IMG/VR virus record: IMGVR_UViG_3300022752_000410
Location: 1 to 22,972 of that record
DNA length: 22,972 nucleotides
Source of the DNA: a virus
Strand: one strand, 5' to 3'
Shown here: piece by piece, positions 1-21,531 of the stretch
How the letters are laid out: every line of letters begins with the position of its first letter
Position numbering within the stretch: position 1 is the first letter of the stretch
Made by a program: the position numbers and the translations under genes
Notes under the pieces: model-generated
The model's input: only the letters and a program-made list of their open reading frames with translations
Databases searched by the model: none
What the model was told of the DNA's origin: nothing

Positions 1-373
1 GGAATACACGCCAGTTCTGGCCTGTCGATGGGCAAAGTTTAGTTGTTATGCTTTTGCACTTGGCGATGGGCAACAGCCAGAATAGATCATCGTTCATACC
101 CCAGCAGGCAACGTAATCCACGCCACTAATGGCTTTCTTTGGAATATTAAAACCATTGCCAGTGCTGGTCGTGAAGCGGTACTTGGTGCGCCCAGGTTCT
201 ACGGTCTGCGCGGTCTTAACTTGGATGCGGAAGAACTTATTATTCTTCTCCGCAACCACATCATACCCAGCAAAATCCTCGTAAGGCGTAAGCACGTTGT
301 ACCCGCATCGCAGCAACGCGCCAGTGACGCGAGCTACCCCTACTGCTCCTACTTGGCGTGATGTTAATTTCAT
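1..373 (-). CDS. PD-(D/E)XK nuclease-like protein, 3' end cut off by window edge
   Basis: I read an open frame from an ATG at 373 down to base 1 with no stop, giving 124 residues; the C-terminus lies outside the window. The N-terminus reads as a helix followed by GYNVLTPYEDFAGYDVVAE and then FFRIQVKTAQ. This is the layout of small PD-(D/E)XK nucleases of the I-Ssp6803I / PDDEXK_5 type: Asp38 in GYD and the Gln51-Val-Lys53 pair are the expected metal-site residues. Family members usually have an acidic residue in the first helix; here that stretch reads VGAVGVARV, so it seems to be missing. An in-frame stop at 407-409 limits the start. There is no well-spaced Shine-Dalgarno (AAGG abuts the ATG). 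It is divergent from the small exported-protein gene. The role could be homing, DNA processing or restriction-like; I cannot tell which. The fold call is fairly good, the function open. Confidence 0.65.
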   Translation of the reverse strand, partial: MKLTSRQVGAVGVARVTGALLRCGYNVLTPYEDFAGYDVVAEKNNKFFRIQVKTAQTVEPGRTKYRFTTSTGNGFNIPKKAISGVDYVACWGMNDDLFWLLPIAKCKSITTKLCPSTGQNWRVF

Positions 374-375
374 CC

Positions 376-404
376 TTGACGGCTTTCGGTTTGTCCTAGA
401 TACT
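376..404 (+). promoter_or_regulatory. sigma70-like promoter for the plus-strand exported-protein gene
   Basis: In the 38-base divergent gap there is TTGACG (376-381, five of six matches to the -35 consensus), a 17-base spacer and GATACT (399-404, four of six matches to the -10 consensus). An overlapping TAGATA (397-402) would give a 15-base spacer. Transcription would start around 408-412, at or just before the ATG at 412. Pattern match only. Confidence 0.5.
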
Positions 405-411
405 TTTCACT

Positions 412-792
412 ATGAAAGCAATAACAATGATAACACTGACGGCGATGCTGATGGCATCGGTGATGGCGGAAGATGATGAAGATGCTGGCAAAATGGAGGC
501 ATTTGTTGGAGGAGTTTATGGGGAGAAAGGATTTGCTGTTATTTTAAGTAACGACCAAGCATTAGTTAATGGTAAATTGATATTGCGGAATGGGGATGTT
601 TATATAACTCCTAAAGGAGTATATACGGATAATAATGGAGTATATTCTTGTCCAAAAGGAATTGTCTCAAGAAATGGAGACATCTTTGCTGGAAGAACTG
701 GAATCAGATATAGCTCTGGAGATGTTTTCTTTGGATCTGGCGGGGCAACCATTGTATCTGGAGGCGCAAGTTCCAGCATGAGGAAACCTTAA
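412..792 (+). CDS. small exported protein built of 14-residue repeats (putative moron)
   Basis: This is the only convincing plus-strand gene in the window (126 residues). Residues 1-19 look like a Sec signal peptide: Lys2, a hydrophobic core of I, L, M, A and V, and a likely cleavage after SVMA, followed by an acidic stretch EDDED. Residues 60-115 divide into four exact 14-residue units (60-73, 74-87, 88-101, 102-115) of the form [NS]-[GN]-[DG]-[VI]-[YF]-x4-G-[VIA]-x3, which suggests stacked beta-hairpins or a small beta-solenoid. A single Cys (Cys80) lies in repeat two. There is no Shine-Dalgarno; the promoter in front predicts a nearly leaderless mRNA. By eye its reading is more AT-rich than the neighbouring late genes. 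It converges on the muramidase gene and shares the bases TTAA as stop. I do not recognise a family. Surface modification of the host cell during infection or lysogeny is a guess from the export signal and the separate promoter. Confidence 0.7.
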   Translation: MKAITMITLTAMLMASVMAEDDEDAGKMEAFVGGVYGEKGFAVILSNDQALVNGKLILRNGDVYITPKGVYTDNNGVYSCPKGIVSRNGDIFAGRTGIRYSSGDVFFGSGGATIVSGGASSSMRKP

Positions 793-1523
793 CCCTGCCC
801 AAAGGTTGACAATCTATTCCTAATCCTAGCCTCTAAGCCAGGAATGAATTTCCTTCGGTTTGGATCAAGCTCTGCTCGCTTGTACTCATCCTGCAATTGA
901 GCATCGCTGGCAGCGCGCATCAACGCCCTTGGCTCAACCTGGTTGATCGCGGCTAATGTCTTAGGACCAAGCCCACCATCTACTGCCACCTTCTGCCCCA
1001 GCGTGTTCAATCCTTGCTGGATGTATTTCGTTGCACCGCCCAGCCCACGATTAAACGCAAGATCCTGCGTGAATGGTTGGAGTGCTTGAGGGAGTTTTTC
1101 AACGAGTGGCGCGGTATATCCTTGGATGTACTCTGCCGCTGCCTTCGCTCTTTCTTGCGCTGGGAGCGATGAGATGGCTTTGAATGCTTCTGGATGGTAT
1201 CGGTCATTAATTCCAGCTACCTCAAAGTTTCCACCCATATCTCCAGTTGGCAACTTGTAGACTGAAAGATTACCCTGCTTATCCTTGCGACCCTCCCATT
1301 CCACGGTTTGCAATGGTAGGGGAAGCGCGCCAGAGGGTTGCTGTGCTGGTGCTGTAGGTGGCTTAACATATTCGCTCATAGGTTCTATCCTCGCGGTCTG
1401 TTCTGGCGGTTGCTGTGGTGGTTTTGAGTAAGGCTCAAACTCCATACGGATCGCGTTATTGCGATCCTGCTGGCTTAAACCAGTTTGGCGTGACGCTGAT
1501 CCAGATATGTCGAACTTAGCCAT
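789..1523 (-). CDS. GH108-like muramidase with C-terminal peptidoglycan-binding domain (endolysin or virion lysozyme)
   Basis: The protein has 244 residues. Residues 1-70 are a Pro/Gln-rich tail with no signal peptide. From about residue 74 comes VEWEGRK, then GDMGGNFEVAGINDRYHPE (94-112). This matches the pattern of GH108 N-acetylmuramidases (E-G-G near the start, then D-x-GG-x-T-x-x-GI); Glu77 is the likely catalytic acid. The C-terminal part, DLAFNRGLGG (154-163) and VDGGLGPKTLAAIN (181-194), matches the PG_binding_3 half that goes with GH108. It would cut the glycan backbone of host peptidoglycan. It follows the giant internal virion gene directly, so it may be packaged for genome entry or serve as the lysis endolysin; the disordered N-terminal tail instead of a signal peptide fits either use. 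The ATG at 1523 has a good AAGGAG six bases upstream. The Thr usual after the GG is Asn here, so the match is not perfect. Confidence 0.65.
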   Translation of the reverse strand: MAKFDISGSASRQTGLSQQDRNNAIRMEFEPYSKPPQQPPEQTARIEPMSEYVKPPTAPAQQPSGALPLPLQTVEWEGRKDKQGNLSVYKLPTGDMGGNFEVAGINDRYHPEAFKAISSLPAQERAKAAAEYIQGYTAPLVEKLPQALQPFTQDLAFNRGLGGATKYIQQGLNTLGQKVAVDGGLGPKTLAAINQVEPRALMRAASDAQLQDEYKRAELDPNRRKFIPGLEARIRNRLSTFGQG

Positions 1524-4500
1524 TTACTCTCCTTGTTGCATCATAAGCTCTCGGCCTATCTCTTGACGCTTCTGCATCTCCTCTGGAGATAGCTCGCGCC
1601 TCATGCTCTTTGTGAGTGACTTGCTAATCTTATAGTCTCTGTACTTGTTGTTGGCTATGGCGGAAGCATTGTCAACGCCCATGCCACCAGCACGCATTGC
1701 GGAGATGGCTTCCGACCTGGAAAGACCAAGCAACATAGAGGCGTGGAAATCTTTGTTGGCCTCATCGAACATAATCCTGCGCCTGTTCTGCATCTTCTCG
1801 AACTGCTCTCGCACTTTTGATTCTGGAACATTGCCAACCGCGCCATAGGTTTCGGTAAAGATTCTACCAACATCGGCCATATCAGTATTGAACCTGGATG
1901 CTTTTGATTCTAGTGCTTTTGATACGTTGATAGATTGAGGACGAATGCCGAACAGCGCGGACAACTCCTCGGATGGCTTGTAGATACGACCATACTTGGA
2001 AACGGTTGTATCTGGTTGACCAGTTAGGGCGTATCCAATCCTGCGGATTTGAGATACTGTTGCAGGTTCATTTTGACGAAGAAGATAAGAGATTGTGTCA
2101 AGCGATTGATCGGTAAAGGTATCCTGGGGATTGCGGATTGTTCTGCCTTGTGGAGCTTTCCCGTAGTATGCGGATATGATTGAGTTAGCCAAAATGCTTG
2201 GACCAATATAAGACTCTGTGAAATCTTTAATTGCTCCAAGTATTGATTCTTCTGGATCTCTTCCAGAGATAGCCGCCTGTACAGGCCCAAAGAATATCTC
2301 GTAAGGGCTAGTGTAAGATACATCTATATATCCGACATCCTTGCCATCCATTCCAGTAGGCATAAGAGAAGCATTCTTTTGGTATGGGGCAACAAATCTT
2401 CTGAGCGCATCCACCTTCCTATCGTTAAATCCAGTAGCCCACATTCCAAGCCTCACGATTCCAATAAGCGCAGTTGTCCCTAGAAGCATTCCAGCCACTC
2501 TCTGGAATGCGTACTTTCGCATACCAGGTGTCTTAAAATCTTCCGCTGCATATCGCACTGTATTGGGTAGAATCCTCAACATCTCAGAAGGCCAAGACAC
2601 AAACTGTCCAATCAATGGCTGCAATCGGAATGCTTTGATGATTCTTGGCACGCGAGAGTAGGTTGGCCTTGTATTCTTTACGCGCTCGGCTGCTATCACC
2701 TCTGCGTCTTGGCGCGACAAACCTCTTCCATCCATAAGTTGCTTCGTTTCGTTCTCCCAGGCCATCAACTTGAACAAATTATCACCAGCACGATAGGTTT
2801 TGTTTAGTGCCTCAATGCCCTTCTTTAAGACATTCGCACTTTTGCCAGCAAGTTCTTCAGCAAGGTCAATAGTCGATCCCTTGTAGCTCTGTGCATCCTT
2901 GAGCATTTGCGTAAACTCATTTAGAACAGTGTTGTCGTATACTCCAAGTTGAGCAGCGCGAGTAAGATAAGCTCTGCCTTCCTTTGTATCCACAGAGGGA
3001 ACTCCAAATTCAGCCAATATGGTTTTAACTGGCTTTAGATTTCCACCAAAATTGAAGTTCCCGTTTACGATCTCGATCAATACGTTTGAAATTGGATTCC
3101 TAAACTGAGCTTGGATGCTACCGACTGTCTTGCCCCACTTGACCCAAGCATTTGCCATCGAGTAAAGCTGGAATGCAGCCCCGCCTTTATGGAACATTTC
3201 AAAATTCTCAATGGCATCGACCAAATCTTTCTCGGCGTACAACCCATTTAATGGAGAGCGAGTGTCAGATCCATCAGCAGCAATCTGCGTGGCCGCATTG
3301 CCAGTTGGTCTTTCAAAGAATAGTTTGTTTGCAACGCCAAACTCTTTCAGTTTGTTTAATTGCTCTTGTAATTGAAGCAGGTTAATCATCTTGCTGGCAG
3401 ACCTAGCGTAATTGATTACTGGATCTGTGTACTCGCCCATTAGGTATCTGATCTGCTCTGGAATATCTTGCCTTGCTTTTGTTATTCCAAGATTCTTTCC
3501 AATTCCAGAGGCTTTAATCAATGACTCAAACGGCTTGTCCTTTCCACCCTCAATATACACCTTGATCTGGCCTTGCACCTCGGCCTCTGTAACGGCTGGG
3601 TTTATTGCCTTCATTTGATTTCTTACAAAATTTTCTGCTATTGCAAATTTATTTGGATCTCGCCTTTTCACAAGCTCTACTGTATATTTGGGGTTATCCT
3701 CCCTTTCGTAAGAACGAGTTAAATACTGTTCCTTGTTCATTCTGACAATGTCAGCCTTGCTCATTCCAGACGGACCGACTTCTTGTGAGAACACGCCTGC
3801 CTGTATTAAGCTTTCAGATAGGTTGTCTAGCTGACGGCGCATCTGCTGTACTACGGGTCTGATTGCTTCTGGAAGATTCTCTGCTGGCAGATAACCACGC
3901 AGGAACTGATCGACCTGGAGCGACTGATCTTGGGTTAATTTAGGCTTGCCATTAAGCTCTCTTGCGGCTTTGGCTAAATCCTTCAGCGTGAAATCAATCT
4001 GCTTCAGCATCGCCTGCGTGCGCGATCCCTTGGCTTCCATAATGTCAAACATCTCTTTTGGAAGATTGCCTTCGGTGGTAAGCCACTTTTGCGCTACCTT
4101 GGCCGCGCCTTCCTGCACATCGGATACAATAAATCCAGCCTCACCAGCCTTGCCACGCATAGGGCGAGGGATGGTTGTTTTCCCAGCTTCAAGTTCAGTT
4201 GCCAATCCTTTCGCTCCCTGCGGAGATTGCCTAATTCTCTCCTCCATTCTCTTCTCTAATTCAATTACTGCGGCTGCTTCTTCTGCTTTTCTTGTCGGCC
4301 TAAACTCACCTTCGGCTGGCAACGCCAACCTCTCGCCACTAGGCAACTGCGTCCTTGGCGTGACAATTGGACCTTCGCGTACAATCTCGCCTTGCAGTCC
4401 GCGAGTGTCTGGAATGATGGCCTCACGATTGATGCCCTGGGATTCGGTAGTAAATACGTTTGTCTTCGGCACTGGATCGTTCAGATCGACCAGACTTTCC

Positions 4501-5687
4501 TGCATCGGAGTGATAATTCCTCTCCGTTGCATCGCAGCCGTATCAGCCTGCGTTCCGCGCACGTTCCCGCGCACGCCAGCCTCTGGCAATTGTTCCTGCG
4601 GAATTACTGTTGCTGGCTTGATTGGACGCTCTTGTGGTTGTGGCCGAGCAACCTGTATTTCGGTTGACGTTGGTGCTGGTAGCGGTTCGTAGTAAGGGCG
4701 AACTTGCGTTGGCTTGCCACCATCAAGATTTACTTTATCTAGAACAGTCCTACCACCAAGTTGAACCTCGGTACGCTTGGCTCGCTCAACTCCAGTTGCC
4801 TGTGTTACCTGTGCTTCATTTAGGATTTGTTGCCAATCTCTGGTTTCAGCAGGCGTAGCTCTGCCAGCCTTAACCTTATAATTCAAATCCTTAAACTCGT
4901 TGAAATTGTATCCTTTAACCCTAGACCCGCTACCAAGGCCAGCATATAACGCGCCGAACAGAGCGTCTTCTGCAACTGTGCCAGGGGTAACCTCACTGCC
5001 AGTAATAGCCCTAACTCCACTTCCAACAGCCGCGCTGACTCCAGCTGACACGCCAACTGCTTGGCCAATTTCTTGCGCTGCTCTCTTTGCGCCTAGCTCT
5101 TGGAACAATGTTTTACCAGCCTGGACCAACTGCTTCGCACCAACCGTACCCATAACAACCTCTGGTGCGTACTGACCAGCCATTGCATAACCTGGAGCAA
5201 ACTCTCTTGACCTAGCAACCTTTGGGGTAAATTTTTGTAAACCAGCCTCTGCTAATTCTCCGCCAGCTATTGCTCCGCCAACGCCTCCAGCAATCGCGCC
5301 AATTGGTCCGCCTACAACAGCACCTCCAAGACCACCAGCAATACCTCCCATAAGCGATGCCGATCCCTTAACCAATCCAGCCGTAAGTGCAGCCGCCTTT
5401 ACATTGGCTGGAACGTCAACTGCCTGCGTGTTTACGAAGTCATCAATTTCAACATCTTGTTCTGGCGTGTAATCTAGAAGTGTGGATGCGTACTGTTTTG
5501 TTTCCGCACCCCATTGGCGAGCTAGATCAACTTGCTCTGGATAGGTAAGACTCTTGTAATCTTCTGAAGCCTTGATCTCGCTCCACGCTGGTGGTTCTTC
5601 TGGCTTTGGTGCTTGTTGCGGTTCAACTGGCATTCCAACCAGTTGTCTTATGCGATTGGCTGACGATAGCTCTAGGGCTTCAGCCAT
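1524..5687 (-). CDS. giant internal virion / DNA-ejection protein with LPD38-like region
   Basis: At 1387 residues this is the largest gene. Residues about 109-148 form a Gly/Ala-rich hydrophobic stretch (GGIAGGLGGAVVGGPIGAIA and onward) of the type that inserts into membranes. Residues 300-560 are rich in Pro, Gln and charged residues. From about 830 to 1090 there is a helical region containing FRNPISNVLIEIVNGNF, YRAGDNLFKLMAWENETKQ and QPLIGQFVSWPSEMLRILPN, resembling the large polyvalent protein-associated domain 38, followed by a hydrophobic helix near 1060-1086. The C-terminus is charged and helical. Its place, last of the internal-protein series before the muramidase, and its size match the T7 gp16-type ejection protein. 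I infer that it leaves the capsid with the DNA and helps form a channel across the host envelope. No lytic transglycosylase motif was recognised in it; the muramidase next door may supply that. The start ATG has AGG eight bases upstream. Confidence 0.6.
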   Translation of the reverse strand: MAEALELSSANRIRQLVGMPVEPQQAPKPEEPPAWSEIKASEDYKSLTYPEQVDLARQWGAETKQYASTLLDYTPEQDVEIDDFVNTQAVDVPANVKAAALTAGLVKGSASLMGGIAGGLGGAVVGGPIGAIAGGVGGAIAGGELAEAGLQKFTPKVARSREFAPGYAMAGQYAPEVVMGTVGAKQLVQAGKTLFQELGAKRAAQEIGQAVGVSAGVSAAVGSGVRAITGSEVTPGTVAEDALFGALYAGLGSGSRVKGYNFNEFKDLNYKVKAGRATPAETRDWQQILNEAQVTQATGVERAKRTEVQLGGRTVLDKVNLDGGKPTQVRPYYEPLPAPTSTEIQVARPQPQERPIKPATVIPQEQLPEAGVRGNVRGTQADTAAMQRRGIITPMQESLVDLNDPVPKTNVFTTESQGINREAIIPDTRGLQGEIVREGPIVTPRTQLPSGERLALPAEGEFRPTRKAEEAAAVIELEKRMEERIRQSPQGAKGLATELEAGKTTIPRPMRGKAGEAGFIVSDVQEGAAKVAQKWLTTEGNLPKEMFDIMEAKGSRTQAMLKQIDFTLKDLAKAARELNGKPKLTQDQSLQVDQFLRGYLPAENLPEAIRPVVQQMRRQLDNLSESLIQAGVFSQEVGPSGMSKADIVRMNKEQYLTRSYEREDNPKYTVELVKRRDPNKFAIAENFVRNQMKAINPAVTEAEVQGQIKVYIEGGKDKPFESLIKASGIGKNLGITKARQDIPEQIRYLMGEYTDPVINYARSASKMINLLQLQEQLNKLKEFGVANKLFFERPTGNAATQIAADGSDTRSPLNGLYAEKDLVDAIENFEMFHKGGAAFQLYSMANAWVKWGKTVGSIQAQFRNPISNVLIEIVNGNFNFGGNLKPVKTILAEFGVPSVDTKEGRAYLTRAAQLGVYDNTVLNEFTQMLKDAQSYKGSTIDLAEELAGKSANVLKKGIEALNKTYRAGDNLFKLMAWENETKQLMDGRGLSRQDAEVIAAERVKNTRPTYSRVPRIIKAFRLQPLIGQFVSWPSEMLRILPNTVRYAAEDFKTPGMRKYAFQRVAGMLLGTTALIGIVRLGMWATGFNDRKVDALRRFVAPYQKNASLMPTGMDGKDVGYIDVSYTSPYEIFFGPVQAAISGRDPEESILGAIKDFTESYIGPSILANSIISAYYGKAPQGRTIRNPQDTFTDQSLDTISYLLRQNEPATVSQIRRIGYALTGQPDTTVSKYGRIYKPSEELSALFGIRPQSINVSKALESKASRFNTDMADVGRIFTETYGAVGNVPESKVREQFEKMQNRRRIMFDEANKDFHASMLLGLSRSEAISAMRAGGMGVDNASAIANNKYRDYKISKSLTKSMRRELSPEEMQKRQEIGRELMMQQGE

Positions 5688-5688
5688 T

Positions 5689-6459
5689 TTATCTGCCTAA
5701 TCTTGATTTGATCCAGCTTTGAGCCTTCGGTTCTTCTGATTGTCCGAAGAAATTATTTAATTGATCTCTTATCGCCTTTGGTGTTTTTGGATCTCTCCAC
5801 ATTCTTTCTGCTTGCTCGTTGTTGTACGAAATTGTGCTTACCCCATCTGCTCCTGCCAATACAACCCTTCCGCCAGAAGATGCTTTTACAAGTTCCTTAC
5901 GAACATCTTGACTTGCCATTCTTATTGCTGAATCACGATCAAAACCTTCGGCCTCATAGGTTGCGGCAACTTGTGGGACTTGATTCCTGTAAATCTGACC
6001 ATAAATGTCTGCGGTTGTTTTTCCAGCTTGTTGGGCAAGAACAGTTTGCTTCACGCCACCAAGATCAACATTTGCCGTGGGCAACAAAGACTTCTCGCCA
6101 GCAAGGTAGTTCTTTGCGGCATCAACTCTTGCTTGTCTTGCCCTGGCCTCAACATCAAGCTCGCCCTGCATCTTTGTGGCTTCAAGAATACTTGGTCCAC
6201 CTTGAGCCACCATCTTCGATGCCATTTGTTCACCAATCGGAATGCCGAATTCCCTTTGTTTTTCTTGCTCAAGAAAAGCAGCAACATCAGCAGCTTTTGA
6301 CGATCTTCCAATTGCTGTTGACATATCAGCCTCTTCGCGTGCTTTCGCTACATCAAATTGAAGCTTCTGAAGTTCAAGCTCAGACTTCATGGCTTTATCA
6401 TATTGCATTTGCTGCATGGCTTTATCATAGTCACGCGCTGCTTGTGTTATTGCTGGCAT
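5689..6459 (-). CDS. helical internal virion protein, unrecognised family
   Basis: The 256-residue protein is rich in Ala, Gln, Lys and Glu. The first 60 residues (RDYDKAMQQMQYDKAMKSEL and onward) contain a near-repeat of YDKAM and read as a long amphipathic helix or coiled coil; the middle is also helical, and the C-terminal 60 residues carry SSGGRVVLAGADGVSTISYN and a basic end (KSRLGR). There is no signal peptide, TM segment or enzyme motif. It lies between two larger internal-protein candidates, one base before the giant gene. By analogy with the T7 order (gp14-gp15-gp16) it may be one of the ejected core proteins; that is inference from position and composition. The start follows the stop of the upstream gene through TAATAATTTATG, with AGG ten bases before the ATG. 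Confidence 0.5.
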   Translation of the reverse strand: MPAITQAARDYDKAMQQMQYDKAMKSELELQKLQFDVAKAREEADMSTAIGRSSKAADVAAFLEQEKQREFGIPIGEQMASKMVAQGGPSILEATKMQGELDVEARARQARVDAAKNYLAGEKSLLPTANVDLGGVKQTVLAQQAGKTTADIYGQIYRNQVPQVAATYEAEGFDRDSAIRMASQDVRKELVKASSGGRVVLAGADGVSTISYNNEQAERMWRDPKTPKAIRDQLNNFFGQSEEPKAQSWIKSRLGR

Positions 6460-11536: not shown

Positions 11537-12766
11537 TTATCCTTCGTACAGTATGTTGACTGAGCCAGCATCAAATGTATCTGTTCCGTTTACTGTGGTT
11601 ATGCGAACTCGATCAAGAGTTGCGGAAAGAGATTTTGTTCCACCAACAAGAGTCATGTACGCGGTAGGCGTTGGTGTCGCAAGAATGCCACCTATTGCCC
11701 AAGTATTAGCCGAACTTGAAAGCAAATTAAGAGTAGCATGACCACTTATCGCTACGCCAGACACGGCATCCGTTCTAATTGTAAAACTTGCTGTATAAAG
11801 TGATGTTGATATACCCGATGGGGATATAAGTGAACTTGCTGCGTTGTAACCAGAGGTTTCAACTCCACCCGAATCGCCGAGTTGTATTGCAGGCAAACTA
11901 GCTCCATTTGTTGAAACTTGGTCAAACATTACAGTAATCCGCTTCACCCAACTAGGAATGCTGGTAAAGTCAATTGCCGTTCCGCTGGTAGATGCAACAG
12001 CAGTAGCAGATGTGAATGGTTGCGACAACTTAGCTGGAGTTATCGATCCGTCCGCAGGAGTCGATGAGAATGTTCCAGTTGTTGCTGAAGTAATCCTACC
12101 CTTTGCGTCTACAGTTATAAATGGAATCGCTGTTACGCTTCCATAGGTTCCAGCCGTTGCTCCGCTTGTTGCAAGCGTTGCTGTTCCTTGACTAATTGTG
12201 AAGTCACCAGCAAGCGTAGTTGACAGATTGCCAATTGTTCCAGTAGTGCTGTTGAGTGTAGCAATCGTTCCAGTAGTGCTGTTAAATGTTCCAATCGTTC
12301 CAGTACTCGCTGTAAGCGTCTGAACTGTTCCATTGGTGATATTGGCCGCAGTAGATGTAGTCGTTCCAGCAGTAAGCGTTGGGATGGTCCCAAGCGTGAT
12401 GTTGGCGGTGCTGGAGGTTAGGTTGGTAATTGTACCAGTAGTAATGGTTGCGCTGGTGCTTACTGTGCGATTGCCCGTAGCAGTTCCGTAGGTGAGCGCA
12501 CCAGATAGGTTTAGGCCAGTATATGTTCCAACAGAAAGAGCATCGTCAAACAAGTTCTGAACTGTTGCACGCCTAGGCGCGCCTGTATCAGAAACTCCGC
12601 CAACAGCAATTAGAATCTGATCGGCAGTTCCCACTGTTGTTAATTCTGTCTGGGTTGTAATTAGGCCAGCGTAGATCCCCGTATCATCAATAAGGTTATG
12701 CAGGCCAGCAGCAGTGACAGTGCCGTTAGTGGCAAATGTTTGGGTTCTATTTAGAATTGTTGCCAT
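11537..12766 (-). CDS. tail fibre protein with repeat shaft and jelly-roll-like C-terminal domain
   Basis: The protein has 409 residues. The N-terminus (GTVTAAGLHNLIDDTGIYAG ... APRRATVQNLF) is of the kind found at the attachment end of many phage fibres. Residues about 100-195 are a Thr/Ser/Gly/Ile shaft with imperfect 10-residue repeats (FNSTTGTIAT, LNSTTGTIGN). From about 265 comes a compact beta domain with SIPSWVKRITVMFDQVS, GDSGGVETSGYN, GHATLNL and a DRVRITTVNGTDTFDAGS ending, a receptor-binding or tip-type C-terminal domain that recurs in phage fibres. It would bind the host surface. The stop of the preceding fibre gene is three bases upstream (TAATTTATG) and the Shine-Dalgarno is poor (AGG 15 bases away), so coupling is likely. 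Confidence 0.65.
   Translation of the reverse strand: MATILNRTQTFATNGTVTAAGLHNLIDDTGIYAGLITTQTELTTVGTADQILIAVGGVSDTGAPRRATVQNLFDDALSVGTYTGLNLSGALTYGTATGNRTVSTSATITTGTITNLTSSTANITLGTIPTLTAGTTTSTAANITNGTVQTLTASTGTIGTFNSTTGTIATLNSTTGTIGNLSTTLAGDFTISQGTATLATSGATAGTYGSVTAIPFITVDAKGRITSATTGTFSSTPADGSITPAKLSQPFTSATAVASTSGTAIDFTSIPSWVKRITVMFDQVSTNGASLPAIQLGDSGGVETSGYNAASSLISPSGISTSLYTASFTIRTDAVSGVAISGHATLNLLSSSANTWAIGGILATPTPTAYMTLVGGTKSLSATLDRVRITTVNGTDTFDAGSVNILYEG
12241..12330. repeat. three imperfect 30-base tandem repeats in the tail fibre shaft
   Basis: Units 12241-12270 and 12271-12300 are close copies (CAGTAGTGCTGTT...CAATCGTTC) and 12301-12330 is a more diverged third. On the minus strand each encodes ten residues of the type x-x-NSTTGTI-x. 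In-frame length ensures that gain or loss of a unit keeps the gene open. Confidence 0.65.
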
Positions 12767-12769
12767 AAA

Positions 12770-13558
12770 TTAAGCTGTAAACCTCATTGCGGTTGCGTAA
12801 AGCGTGCCAGCGGGGATTGTTCCATGTGAAATTGTATCTGTATTAAGAATTGTGTATCTAATAACATTTGCACCCTCAACCCTAAATTGGCTCATCATTC
12901 TTGCTCCTGCCGTGCCAAGTCCTGCAGTACCAGAGCTTGAGCTAAGTGAGTTAAGTCCGCCCAAGACAATATCTCCAATTGCTGCACCAGAAACTGTAAA
13001 TGTTCCAGTTGTTATATTTGATCCACTTGTTATTGAGTCAAGGTCTTGAAGTGTTGCGCCAGTAAATGCAGCAGTTCCATAATTAAATGCTGTAACTCCG
13101 CCAGTAGAGCCAGTAATTCTGGCTGTACCAAATGTAGCAGAAGCAATCGTTGATACGTTTACTGACTCAGTTCCAATTGAAGCCGTGCTTACAGAAATTG
13201 TACCCAGCGTGCTTGTTCCAGTAGAGGATGTAAAGCCAGTAGCAAAGGTTGTTACGCCGTTGACGGTTGGGATTGTTGCGGTGCTAATCGTTGCTGTGCT
13301 GATTGTGGCTGTGCTGATTGTGGCTGTACCAATCGTAACCGTGCCAGTAGTAGCAGAAATGCTGGAGCTAAAGGTGGCTGCGCCAGTAACCGAAAGAGAG
13401 CCTGTGCTGCTCACGCCTCCTGTGGATAGTTGAAGCGCGGAGGATACGTTGTTGCCATCGGTGATGGTCTGTATCGTGCCGTCAATGCCAGTGGTGCCGC
13501 TAGTCTTAATTAGTTGGACGTAACTGGTAGAAATGTTCTGTGTTCCAAGTGTGGGCAT
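12770..13558 (-). CDS. repeat-rich tail fibre or tail appendage protein
   Basis: The protein has 262 residues and almost wholly small beta-formers (Thr, Ser, Gly, Ile, Ala). The N-terminus (MPTLGTQNISTSYVQLIKTS) leads to a shaft containing five 5-residue units of the type [GS]-T-[AV]-T-I near residues 72-96, then less regular TG- and ST-rich repeats. The C-terminal 45 residues (MSQFRVEGANVIRYTILNTD and onward) look like a folded end domain. A triple-stranded beta fibre or beta-helix is likely. With the next gene it forms a pair of fibre subunits; they may interlock, or one may be an adaptor. AGGAG lies five bases before the ATG. Confidence 0.55.
   Translation of the reverse strand: MPTLGTQNISTSYVQLIKTSGTTGIDGTIQTITDGNNVSSALQLSTGGVSSTGSLSVTGAATFSSSISATTGTVTIGTATISTATISTATISTATIPTVNGVTTFATGFTSSTGTSTLGTISVSTASIGTESVNVSTIASATFGTARITGSTGGVTAFNYGTAAFTGATLQDLDSITSGSNITTGTFTVSGAAIGDIVLGGLNSLSSSSGTAGLGTAGARMMSQFRVEGANVIRYTILNTDTISHGTIPAGTLYATAMRFTA
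13271..13345. repeat. five 15-base tandem repeats encoding [GS]T[AV]TI
   Basis: Units begin at 13271, 13286, 13301, 13316 and 13331. The two central ones share GATTGTGGCTGT exactly and the outer ones differ at a few bases. Read on the minus strand they encode GTVTI, GTATI, STATI, STATI and STATI. The array is in frame, inside the fibre shaft. Confidence 0.75.
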
Positions 13559-19161: not shown

Positions 19162-21038
19162 CCCGCCATCGGTGCTGGTGCTTGGCCTTGCATTGCTTCT
19201 TGAGGCAATTGTTGCCCCTGCTGTTGCATCTGAGCCTTACCTGCATCACGAAGCTGTTTCTGGATAGCGCGGGATGTATTGGGGTCAACCTGTTCCAAGG
19301 CTGCCAAGTGCTGTTGTAAGTGAGCCATTAGAACTTGCATTGCGCTCTGATCGACCTGCTGTTGTCGCTGTTGAGCCGCTTGGTTAAACGCGAAGAGAAC
19401 GGATATATGCGCTTTGTGATCATCGCTAGGCTTGATTGCGACTGGGAATCCAGTTGCAAGCATAGTCGCGATTTCAGTCGCTTGATCTTCAGCTTGATCG
19501 CCAGAGGCTGCGTTTGGATCTTGGAAGAGTCTGCGGACCAGCGAGGGATCATCTTGTTCAAGCACTGACTTTACCAGTTCTCCTTGGTTCACGAAAGGAT
19601 TATTTTGAAACATCTGCATTCGCGCCACAGACTTCTGCAACGCAAACTGGCGGTTGATGAAGTCAAGTCCACCCTTTGGTTCAATCGAATATTCATCGTG
19701 GATACCTTCGGGTGGCATTGAACCAGTTTCTTCCGCATAGCGATACATCAAGTCTTTCTTGTTGTACTGAGTATAAAGCGACCAGCACTGCTTGAAGAGA
19801 TGGGCTAGACCCATCCTAAACATACGATTGCGTAAATCGCCAGACGCTGCTGCCTGCGACTGCAACGCTTGAATCTCGGTGGCAGTCTTGCGATCCGACA
19901 CCTGGAACTGCGACCCAGCACCAAAGTCTGGATTGCCCATCCGCTGTTCGGAAAGTAGACGCTCTTCGAGCATCAGTTTCTGGAAGTCAAATGGAGGTTG
20001 GCTAAACTGAACAGGTTTTAAGCCTTGTGGCAGAATCTGCCCAGGCTGCATCTTCAGATTTGATGTGTTTAACGAGATCGGATTCTGTGCTTCAAAAACG
20101 GGTCGGTTGGCCAGTTCAACGTAATCGGAGAGGGAGTTCTTGAGCTTATTTAGCAGGTTCTCATTAGGGAGCAGGATCTCTGCTACGCCTCTCGGACTGT
20201 ACCAACCGCCCCCTGTTACCTCATAGGGGAAATCTACGAAAGGTGGTTCACCGTGACGATAGGGTAATGTGAAAGGTTTGCGGACATCTTCGGTTACGAC
20301 AAGCGGACTATATGTTTCAACCTTCCATCCATCTTCGGAAGGGGTGTACATCTCCCAAAGGATAATACGATCATTCTCAGCTTCCTGAGTAATTCCTTCA
20401 CGCCTGTAAATCTCGTCTTGAATCTCACTTCGTAAGCCCACTGATTTCGAGGGTTTACCTGAAATTGTTTTGATAAAGTCCTCATCCTGCTTGTACAAGG
20501 GATTTGCCTTATAGGAATCGACACTTGTCGAGATGATGTGAACGATAAAATCTGCATCTTTGAACTCCTTTGTATAGGCAGGAACAATAATATGGAAGGG
20601 ATCAATAGCCTCAAAGTCAATGCGCTTCTTGTCCTCGTTCCAGATAATCTTAGCCACGCCTCGTCCGTAGAGGAGGATGTTGTCGATTACAGACACAATC
20701 TCTTTCTGGAAGTTGGTGCGCTCGCGCATATTGTAATCAAACCAACGCTCGGCTGATACGGTCAGCGGGGTTAGCTGTTGGCGCATCGGAACGAAGCTGG
20801 AGAGAATGTCGTTACCAATCGCGCTGTTGACGAAGGAAGGCTTTAGCTTCTCAATGGCTGTGTCGATTAGCTGAACGTGTAGGTCGGCTGCTGTAGGCCA
20901 AGGCTTGACCTTACGGCGCACACCAAAGTAGCGAGCTTGATAGAACAACCGCTGGCGGTTCTCCCAAGTCTCGCGCTGGTTTAGTGCATCAATGATTCTT
21001 GTATAATAATCTGTACGGCGAGTATCTTTAGCGTTCAT
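19158..21038 (-). CDS. portal protein
   Basis: The protein has 626 residues. The start carries RRTDYYTRIIDALNQRETWE and VRRKVKPWPTAADLHVQLID (40-59), then AIEKLKPSFVNSAI, a pattern I associate with portal proteins of short-tailed phages. The middle has VSVIDNILLYGRGVAKIIWN (strand-turn-strand of the wing/clip type) and YSPRGVAEILLPNENLLNKL. The last 90 residues are very Gln-rich (QAAQQRQQQVDQSAMQVLMA and QMQQQGQQLPQEAMQGQAPA), fitting a helical barrel or flexible tail. It forms the dodecameric DNA gate used by the terminase. GTGGAG lies nine bases before the ATG, which overlaps the lipoprotein stop as ATGA. Confidence 0.75.
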   Translation of the reverse strand: MNAKDTRRTDYYTRIIDALNQRETWENRQRLFYQARYFGVRRKVKPWPTAADLHVQLIDTAIEKLKPSFVNSAIGNDILSSFVPMRQQLTPLTVSAERWFDYNMRERTNFQKEIVSVIDNILLYGRGVAKIIWNEDKKRIDFEAIDPFHIIVPAYTKEFKDADFIVHIISTSVDSYKANPLYKQDEDFIKTISGKPSKSVGLRSEIQDEIYRREGITQEAENDRIILWEMYTPSEDGWKVETYSPLVVTEDVRKPFTLPYRHGEPPFVDFPYEVTGGGWYSPRGVAEILLPNENLLNKLKNSLSDYVELANRPVFEAQNPISLNTSNLKMQPGQILPQGLKPVQFSQPPFDFQKLMLEERLLSEQRMGNPDFGAGSQFQVSDRKTATEIQALQSQAAASGDLRNRMFRMGLAHLFKQCWSLYTQYNKKDLMYRYAEETGSMPPEGIHDEYSIEPKGGLDFINRQFALQKSVARMQMFQNNPFVNQGELVKSVLEQDDPSLVRRLFQDPNAASGDQAEDQATEIATMLATGFPVAIKPSDDHKAHISVLFAFNQAAQQRQQQVDQSAMQVLMAHLQQHLAALEQVDPNTSRAIQKQLRDAGKAQMQQQGQQLPQEAMQGQAPAPMAG

Positions 21039-21346
21039 TTGTTGCGCTCCACTTTAAGTTCGTATGAAAGATCGTTGACTGCATTCAAAGCTTTCCTCGC
21101 CCACTCGCGTGTGCCAGGTGTACCTCTGCGAATCTCGTTATAGTTTTGGTCTTTCATTAACTCTTCAACTATCCCCGTTGTGTGTGTTACTGGTGTCGTT
21201 GTTGCGCAACCACCAAGACTCACCACGCAAATCACGCTCAATAGCTTCGCGATTATGTTTCCACTCGCCTTCGATGTTGTTGACTCGCTTCTCACGCCAA
21301 GCTGGGATGAGGCGAAGGATTGATGCGATGAGATTAAATATCGCAC
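21035..21346 (-). CDS. lipoprotein overlapping the small TM gene (o-spanin / Rz1-like candidate)
   Basis: The frame runs from a GTG at 21346 (103 residues). It contains AKLLSVICVVSLGGCATTTP with lipobox LGGC; the Cys is residue 47. A GTG at 21295 would give a more normal 29-residue leader (MRSESTTSKASGNII...); the long version would resemble the long leader of T7 gp18.7. The mature part is about 57 residues, charged and helical near the end (REWARKALNAVNDLSYELKV). The signal region lies wholly within the neighbouring TM gene in another frame, the nested Rz/Rz1 layout. If real it is anchored in the outer membrane and meets the inner-membrane partner during lysis. The start codon is uncertain. 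Confidence 0.6.
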   Translation of the reverse strand: MRYLISSHQSFASSQLGVRSESTTSKASGNIIAKLLSVICVVSLGGCATTTPVTHTTGIVEELMKDQNYNEIRRGTPGTREWARKALNAVNDLSYELKVERNK

Positions 21347-21353
21347 CGATCAC
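21165..21353 (-). CDS. small N-terminal TM protein (i-spanin-like candidate)
   Basis: The frame translates from a GTG at 21353 as 62 residues: a hydrophobic start (MIGAIFNLIASILRLIPAWR) and then a charged helical part (NNIEGEWKHNREAIERDLRG) ending in Asn/Ser/Asp. One N-terminal TM with a periplasmic coiled portion is the build of Rz-type inner-membrane spanins, but this one is very short. It begins seven bases after the stop of the upstream small membrane protein and shares most of its length with the overlapping lipoprotein frame. There is no clear Shine-Dalgarno. It may be a true gene or a fortunate open frame; the conserved-looking WREKR and SWWLRN stretches favour a gene. Confidence 0.5.
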   Translation of the reverse strand: MIGAIFNLIASILRLIPAWREKRVNNIEGEWKHNREAIERDLRGESWWLRNNDTSNTHNGDS

Positions 21354-21360
21354 TTGCTAC

Positions 21361-21531
21361 TTATTTAATGTTTAGACCAATCGTCTTTAGAAAATTAACG
21401 ATCTTTTCCAAGAACGAATCGTCAGCGGGTGTGGGTGTGAGTTTAACAATGATGCGAGCTGCAAGAACGATGCCACCAACAGCGGCTACGATCTCTTGCC
21501 AGTTTGCAGTAATCCAATTCCAGATATTCAT
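21361..21531 (-). CDS. 56-residue one-TM protein (holin-like candidate)
   Basis: The frame translates as MNIWNWITANWQEIVAAVGG, continues IVLAARIIVKLTPTPADDSF, and ends LEKIVNFLKTIGLNIK. Residues about 13-31 form one TM helix, followed by KLTPTPADD and an amphipathic helix. Small proteins with a N-x-W-x-x-I-T-x-N-W start and TPTPxDD after the TM are common in phage genomes and often sit by lysis genes. A perfect AGGAGG lies nine bases before the ATG and overlaps the terminase stop, so translation is almost certain. A holin role is inferred from size, TM and neighbours. Confidence 0.65.
   Translation of the reverse strand: MNIWNWITANWQEIVAAVGGIVLAARIIVKLTPTPADDSFLEKIVNFLKTIGLNIK

Follow-up and report, generated by a model that had tools for sequence, protein, structure and literature searches.

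An exported beta-repeat protein with exchangeable mature domains in every sampled genome of an uncultured aquatic phage group

What does a phage gain from a small exported protein that its whole group keeps at one fixed place in the genome, while the mature part is exchanged from one phage to the next? This question is raised by a gene at the left end of IMG/VR record IMGVR_UViG_3300022752_000410, of which positions 1 to 22,972 were analysed here (22,972 nucleotides, hereafter the window). The first-pass annotation of this DNA had described a phage-encoded, secreted beta-repeat protein of no recognised family, placed at an operon edge and possibly acting on the host surface or in exclusion; the phage origin is confirmed by terminase, portal and capsid genes. 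Retention of the gene together with exchange of its mature part suggests a specificity factor in the host envelope, and the answer we tentatively favour is exclusion of other phages there. The gene and its parts are:

412–792, plus strand: exported beta-repeat protein gene (126 residues plus stop), with relatives and ratios of nonsynonymous to synonymous substitution (dN/dS) reported below
412–468, plus strand: Sec-type signal peptide, MKAITMITLTAMLMASVMA, variants of which are common to most alleles, not all, and whose codons show unusually low third-position diversity
469–789, plus strand: mature domain, the segment that is exchanged as a unit between phages
589–756, plus strand: four 14-residue units (residues 60–115), each with two short beta strands in the AlphaFold2 model, read as a hairpin

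Results

Occurrence and family searches

The gene is carried by well over 100 IMG/VR contigs, with exactly one copy in 48 of 48 related contigs of 12–39 kb. Relatives at the same site, which had been proposed as a check, were recovered in a search with the neighbouring nuclease gene, at one fixed position in 78 of 78 readable nuclease loci. All sampled genomes of an uncultured aquatic phage group have the gene in a single copy. The best terminase matches are to Akkermansia phages (35–37%) and point weakly to a host among the Verrucomicrobiota; the other genes do not point there.

As the annotation had stated, no family could be recognised. Pfam, NCBIfam, PHROGs and PADLOC gave no consistent family (best matches to single or paired members, E 0.001 or weaker), no relative was found among PDB sequences, where the matches (E 0.18–0.42, e.g. 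cholix toxin and PknD) were taken as chance, and Rfam gave no match. Neither the window protein nor L165, a relative 30% identical to it, had a match in INPHARED phages at the sensitivity used, and two pattern scans of GTDB species genomes, one based on the signal peptide and one on mature domains, found no relative at the sensitivity of such patterns.

Mature domains are exchanged as alleles

At least 12 clusters, mostly 20–45% identical (up to 59%), can be distinguished among the mature parts, while the signal peptides are often nearly identical between clusters and the upstream DNA is shared; some alleles have unrelated signal peptides. In pairs of genomes with near-identical flanks, DNA identity drops from about 95–100% to about random past codon 19–23 and recovers at the stop codon. 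For example, the window and contig L091 are 97.3% identical in the nuclease gene, 100% in the spacer and 98.2% in the signal peptide, then 64.8% in the mature DNA (random baseline 58.6%), and again 95.0% downstream. The sharp drop after the signal peptide and the recovery at the stop codon imply allelic exchange of the mature domain.

Up to five alleles were found within one metagenome. The reading frame, whose conservation had been named as a point on which the first interpretation depended, is kept in more than 100 related loci, and within clusters the dN/dS of the mature part is 0.06–0.22 (purifying selection), values that rule out continuous arms-race diversification inside an allele. The mature domain is thus shown to be exchanged between genomes as discrete, maintained and internally conserved alleles.

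Exchange at a fixed site could also be driven by the site itself, if the PDDEXK_5 endonuclease encoded next to the exported protein made it a recombination hotspot and the variable gene were mainly a passenger. In favour of such a cassette, the two genes are always neighbours, recombination genes come next in the same block and the edges of the swap are sharp. However, all genomes carry the nuclease, so that no empty target exists; its variants are almost unlinked to the alleles (nuclease-flank difference 0.196 between genomes with the same allele vs 0.207 between genomes with different ones); and purifying selection acts strongly on the very product that is exchanged. We regard this explanation as improbable.

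Export signal, repeat and predicted fold

Export of the window protein is supported by its sequence, which starts with MK and continues with a hydrophobic stretch and VMA ahead of E20. A Sec-like signal peptide is retained across alleles, even in those where the signal sequence is unrelated, in agreement with the secreted character first proposed. The protein has one Cys in total and none at the cleavage site, so a lipobox is lacking, and the mature sequence contains neither a long hydrophobic helix nor a predicted membrane helix.

Residues 60–115 consist of four units of 14 residues each, NGDVYITPKGVYTD, NNGVYSCPKGIVSR, NGDIFAGRTGIRYS and SGDVFFGSGGATIV, and the self-similarity at lag 14 (z = 6.6) was reached by 0 of 2000 shuffles. 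Lag 14 was also significant in seven relatives from other clusters, the weakest signal being that of cluster c1 (p 0.0015 for lag 14, 0.067 over all lags). The motif that had been assigned to the units stands in part: Gly is at position 10 in four of four, while units 1, 3 and 4 carry GD[VI][YF] and unit 2 has NGVY in its place.

An AlphaFold2 model of the window protein, built on a 20-sequence alignment, predicts 11 short strands in addition to a short helix; each unit contributes two strands, in register with the repeat, and the predicted local distance difference test (pLDDT) score is about 90 over residues 31–110. The same helix-strand pattern was predicted for L165. Both models are consistent with a beta-repeat protein and with ordered strands that match the repeat, rather than with the disorder that had been considered as the opposite outcome. 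The strand pattern, together with weak structural look-alikes, suggests that the fold is a meander rather than a solenoid. Foldseek returned no match below E 0.05 and none against BFVD; the best VIA Z scores were 5.1 to CpeT and 4.6 to RsfG, both weak beta-meander or small-barrel look-alikes, and the folds compared (lipocalin/FABP/CpeT-like, and YD/CROP/TCP10 beta repeats) gave weak structural matches at best.

Genomic position and upstream DNA

The features that surround the gene, or overlap its start, are:

2–373, minus strand: PDDEXK_5 endonuclease, divergent neighbour that runs off the window (PF11645, E = 7.8e-16)
376–404, plus strand: sigma-70-like promoter match TTGACG-17-GATACT (consensus match only)
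388–407, plus strand: 20-mer conserved upstream of the gene, GGTTTGTSCTAGAKACTTTT, found once in each contig, 3–4 bp ahead of the ATG
443–459, plus strand: inverted repeat CGATGC-TGATG-GCATCG within the DNA that encodes the signal peptide, with little variation across 80 sequences
789–1523, minus strand: PG_binding_3 peptidoglycan-hydrolase-like protein, convergent neighbour with a 4 bp overlap (PF09374, 4.2e-08; phrog_315, 3.5e-10)
1524–5687, minus strand: large virion protein of type f38, a type that covaries with the exported allele (phrog_22602, 9.7e-47)
5689–6459, minus strand: second protein of the same variable module, type f39

The ATGs of the nuclease and the exported gene are divergent and separated by 38 bp. 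Almost all the remaining conserved genes of a 38-kb relative lie on the opposite strand, leaving the exported gene as the single well-conserved plus-strand gene. The operon edge noted earlier can be specified further, as the virion-gene block ends on one side of the gene and the recombination/replication block begins on the other. Beyond the nuclease, a related genome encodes a Holliday-junction-resolvase-like protein, a phrog_862 protein, an exonuclease and primase/helicase genes. The other flank carries, in order, the hydrolase-like gene, the large virion protein (type f38, f21 or f57), the second variable protein and tail genes.

The region 1524–6459 occurs as separate module types, namely f38/f39, f21 with f49, f68 or f138, and f57 with f65, f156 or f180, and its variation is module exchange in its own right. 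Further into the window, 11537–13558 encodes fibre-like proteins rich in threonine, serine and glycine, which differ strongly from genome to genome, independently of the exported allele. At 21035–21531, between portal and terminase and away from the hydrolase, we noted by eye a holin-like 56-residue open reading frame and a lipoprotein (spanin-like) one, one of them with an embedded overlapping frame. One genome carries a C-5 cytosine methylase gene (L271:12165–13823) that is poorly conserved among relatives.

When the upstream 20-mer was used as a search pattern, it had a single occurrence in each contig, and a family member always followed it where sequence sufficed. Together with the sigma-70-like match it makes it plausible that the gene has its own promoter, as the annotation had supposed; given that the match ends about 7 bp ahead of the ATG, the message could possibly be leaderless. 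Across 80 sequences, third-position diversity was 0.115 in the signal-peptide codons vs 0.348 in the adjacent nuclease gene, which indicates an extra constraint on the DNA at 412–468, perhaps a leftward early promoter or operator. An RNA hairpin at the inverted repeat was considered and dismissed, since its folding z of −0.87 is not unusual.

Linkage to putative entry genes and candidate functions

The neighbouring hydrolase and the large virion protein covary with the exported alleles (Cramer's V 0.87 between allele and large-protein type in 95 loci; rho 0.72 for fam21), and capsid and portal hardly do. Because the alleles are both swapped and linked to genes of envelope entry, our leading idea is a superinfection-exclusion factor that is exported and acts on envelope penetration, by a logic like that of Spackle or SieA in a different family; we hold it as possible, at well short of even confidence. 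The protein would be made early, as suggested by the layout, in which 38 bp separate its start codon from that of the first recombination/replication gene and the two genes are divergent. After cleavage of the signal it would remain in the periplasm or envelope of the host, where it would stop DNA entry of a later phage by binding a virion component active in the envelope, the candidates being the neighbouring hydrolase or the large virion protein (a possible ejection protein). Exclusion at entry fits a protein that has a Sec-type signal, is probably expressed early, occurs in every sampled genome, is exchanged as alleles and is associated with genes for envelope penetration, and we propose that many alleles persist because the exclusion type is under frequency-dependent selection.

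Several observations weigh against this reading. Alleles c2, c5 and c8 of the f38 module reassort almost freely beside a hydrolase that is conserved, and c4 alleles that are nearly identical occur in both f38 and f57 modules, so the allele is not simply matched to the phage's own entry proteins. The association with hydrolase and large protein may come simply from physical linkage, because recombination cannot take place inside modules that differ. The large proteins are no more than putative ejection proteins: the family match of f38 is only to a 'virion structural protein' family and that of f57 only to a family of uncharacterised function, f21 having no match. Finally, a study of P22 described two SieA types without a difference in target (PMC10883804).

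The hydrolase also allows for a different role, in which the exported protein inhibits or times this enzyme in the periplasm, in the manner of T4 RI or lysozyme inhibitors, and thereby regulates lysis. In every module the hydrolase gene is adjacent and convergent, in the f21 and f57 modules its type covaries with the allele, and the weak structural look-alikes are small beta barrels. Yet clusters c2, c4, c5, c8 and c9 of the f38 module (mostly 20–48% identical) pair with nearly the same hydrolase, the two proteins are likely expressed at opposite times, and holin-like and spanin-like genes, assigned by eye, lie elsewhere, near the terminase. We consider a lysis regulator unlikely.

Exclusion could instead act at adsorption, through a protein of the Llp/Cor type that masks the receptor from the periplasm or the surface. 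The product is small, exported and probably early, its allelic diversity could track receptor diversity, and T5 Llp is a precedent (PMC9586334); it is, however, without a lipobox cysteine, and its alleles show no covariation with putative fibre families 6 and 17 (rho 0.02 and −0.04), though the receptor-binding protein may be another. Masking of this kind seems less likely still than control of lysis.

If the target were the host, an envelope effector (e.g. a protease inhibitor, envelope remodelling or a cell-cell effect) might have its alleles kept by host variation. Discrete coexisting alleles under purifying selection, the export signal and the lack of a link to most virion genes are compatible with this, but linkage to the type of hydrolase and large virion protein would be unexpected unless physical, and no known effector family was matched. 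We judge such an effector to have the same low likelihood as a lysis regulator.

Comparison with known exclusion proteins

The closest parallels to envelope exclusion are found in three phages. Spackle (gp61.3) of T4 is made early and inhibits the virion lysozyme gp5 in the periplasm (PMC7677548). It resembles the present protein in being small and phage-encoded with an export signal; signal cleavage, early expression and periplasmic action, which characterise Spackle, are here suggested by sequence and gene layout. The present gene sits beside a peptidoglycan-hydrolase-like one. Spackle differs in being an alpha-helical bundle with a disulfide, in contrast to the predicted short helix and 11 strands with a single Cys, and in targeting gp5 while being well conserved among homologues, whereas the protein described here is hypervariable. 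SieA of P22, from which phages escape by mutation of ejection proteins 16 and 20 and which occurs as three types under 30% identical (PMC10883804), is likewise the product of a short-tailed-phage gene with several such divergent types; it acts on ejection proteins, putative counterparts of which covary with the allele here. SieA resides in the inner membrane, unlike a protein with a cleavable signal, a beta model and no predicted membrane helix in its mature part.

The llp gene of T5 adjoins the receptor-binding gene against which its product acts (PMC9586334), and both Llp/Cor and the present protein are small exported phage proteins encoded beside a gene for an entry-step virion protein. Llp/Cor are lipoproteins that block FhuA, in contrast to a protein without lipobox and without covariation with putative fibres. 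Membership of each family fails on the feature tested, be it the helical fold (Spackle), the inner-membrane nature (SieA) or the lipobox (Llp/Cor). A single opposite-strand gene that may have its own promoter and whose content can be exchanged is also reminiscent of phage morons, which are optional, while this gene is in every sampled genome.

Discussion

It is rare for a hypervariable exported protein to be demonstrated throughout a phage group. In this case the points at which DNA identity falls and recovers identify the mature exported domain as what is exchanged, and many alleles coexist in the same waters. The fuller proposal is of a new exclusion system, in which an obligatory, early, exported beta-repeat protein keeps a common promoter and signal peptide, has its whole mature domain exchanged as an 'exclusion type' and bars other phages at envelope entry; we advance it with slightly more doubt than the general idea of envelope exclusion. 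If alleles are exclusion types, competition between phages within a cell would be readable from metagenomes, and tests of allele against target could be designed directly.
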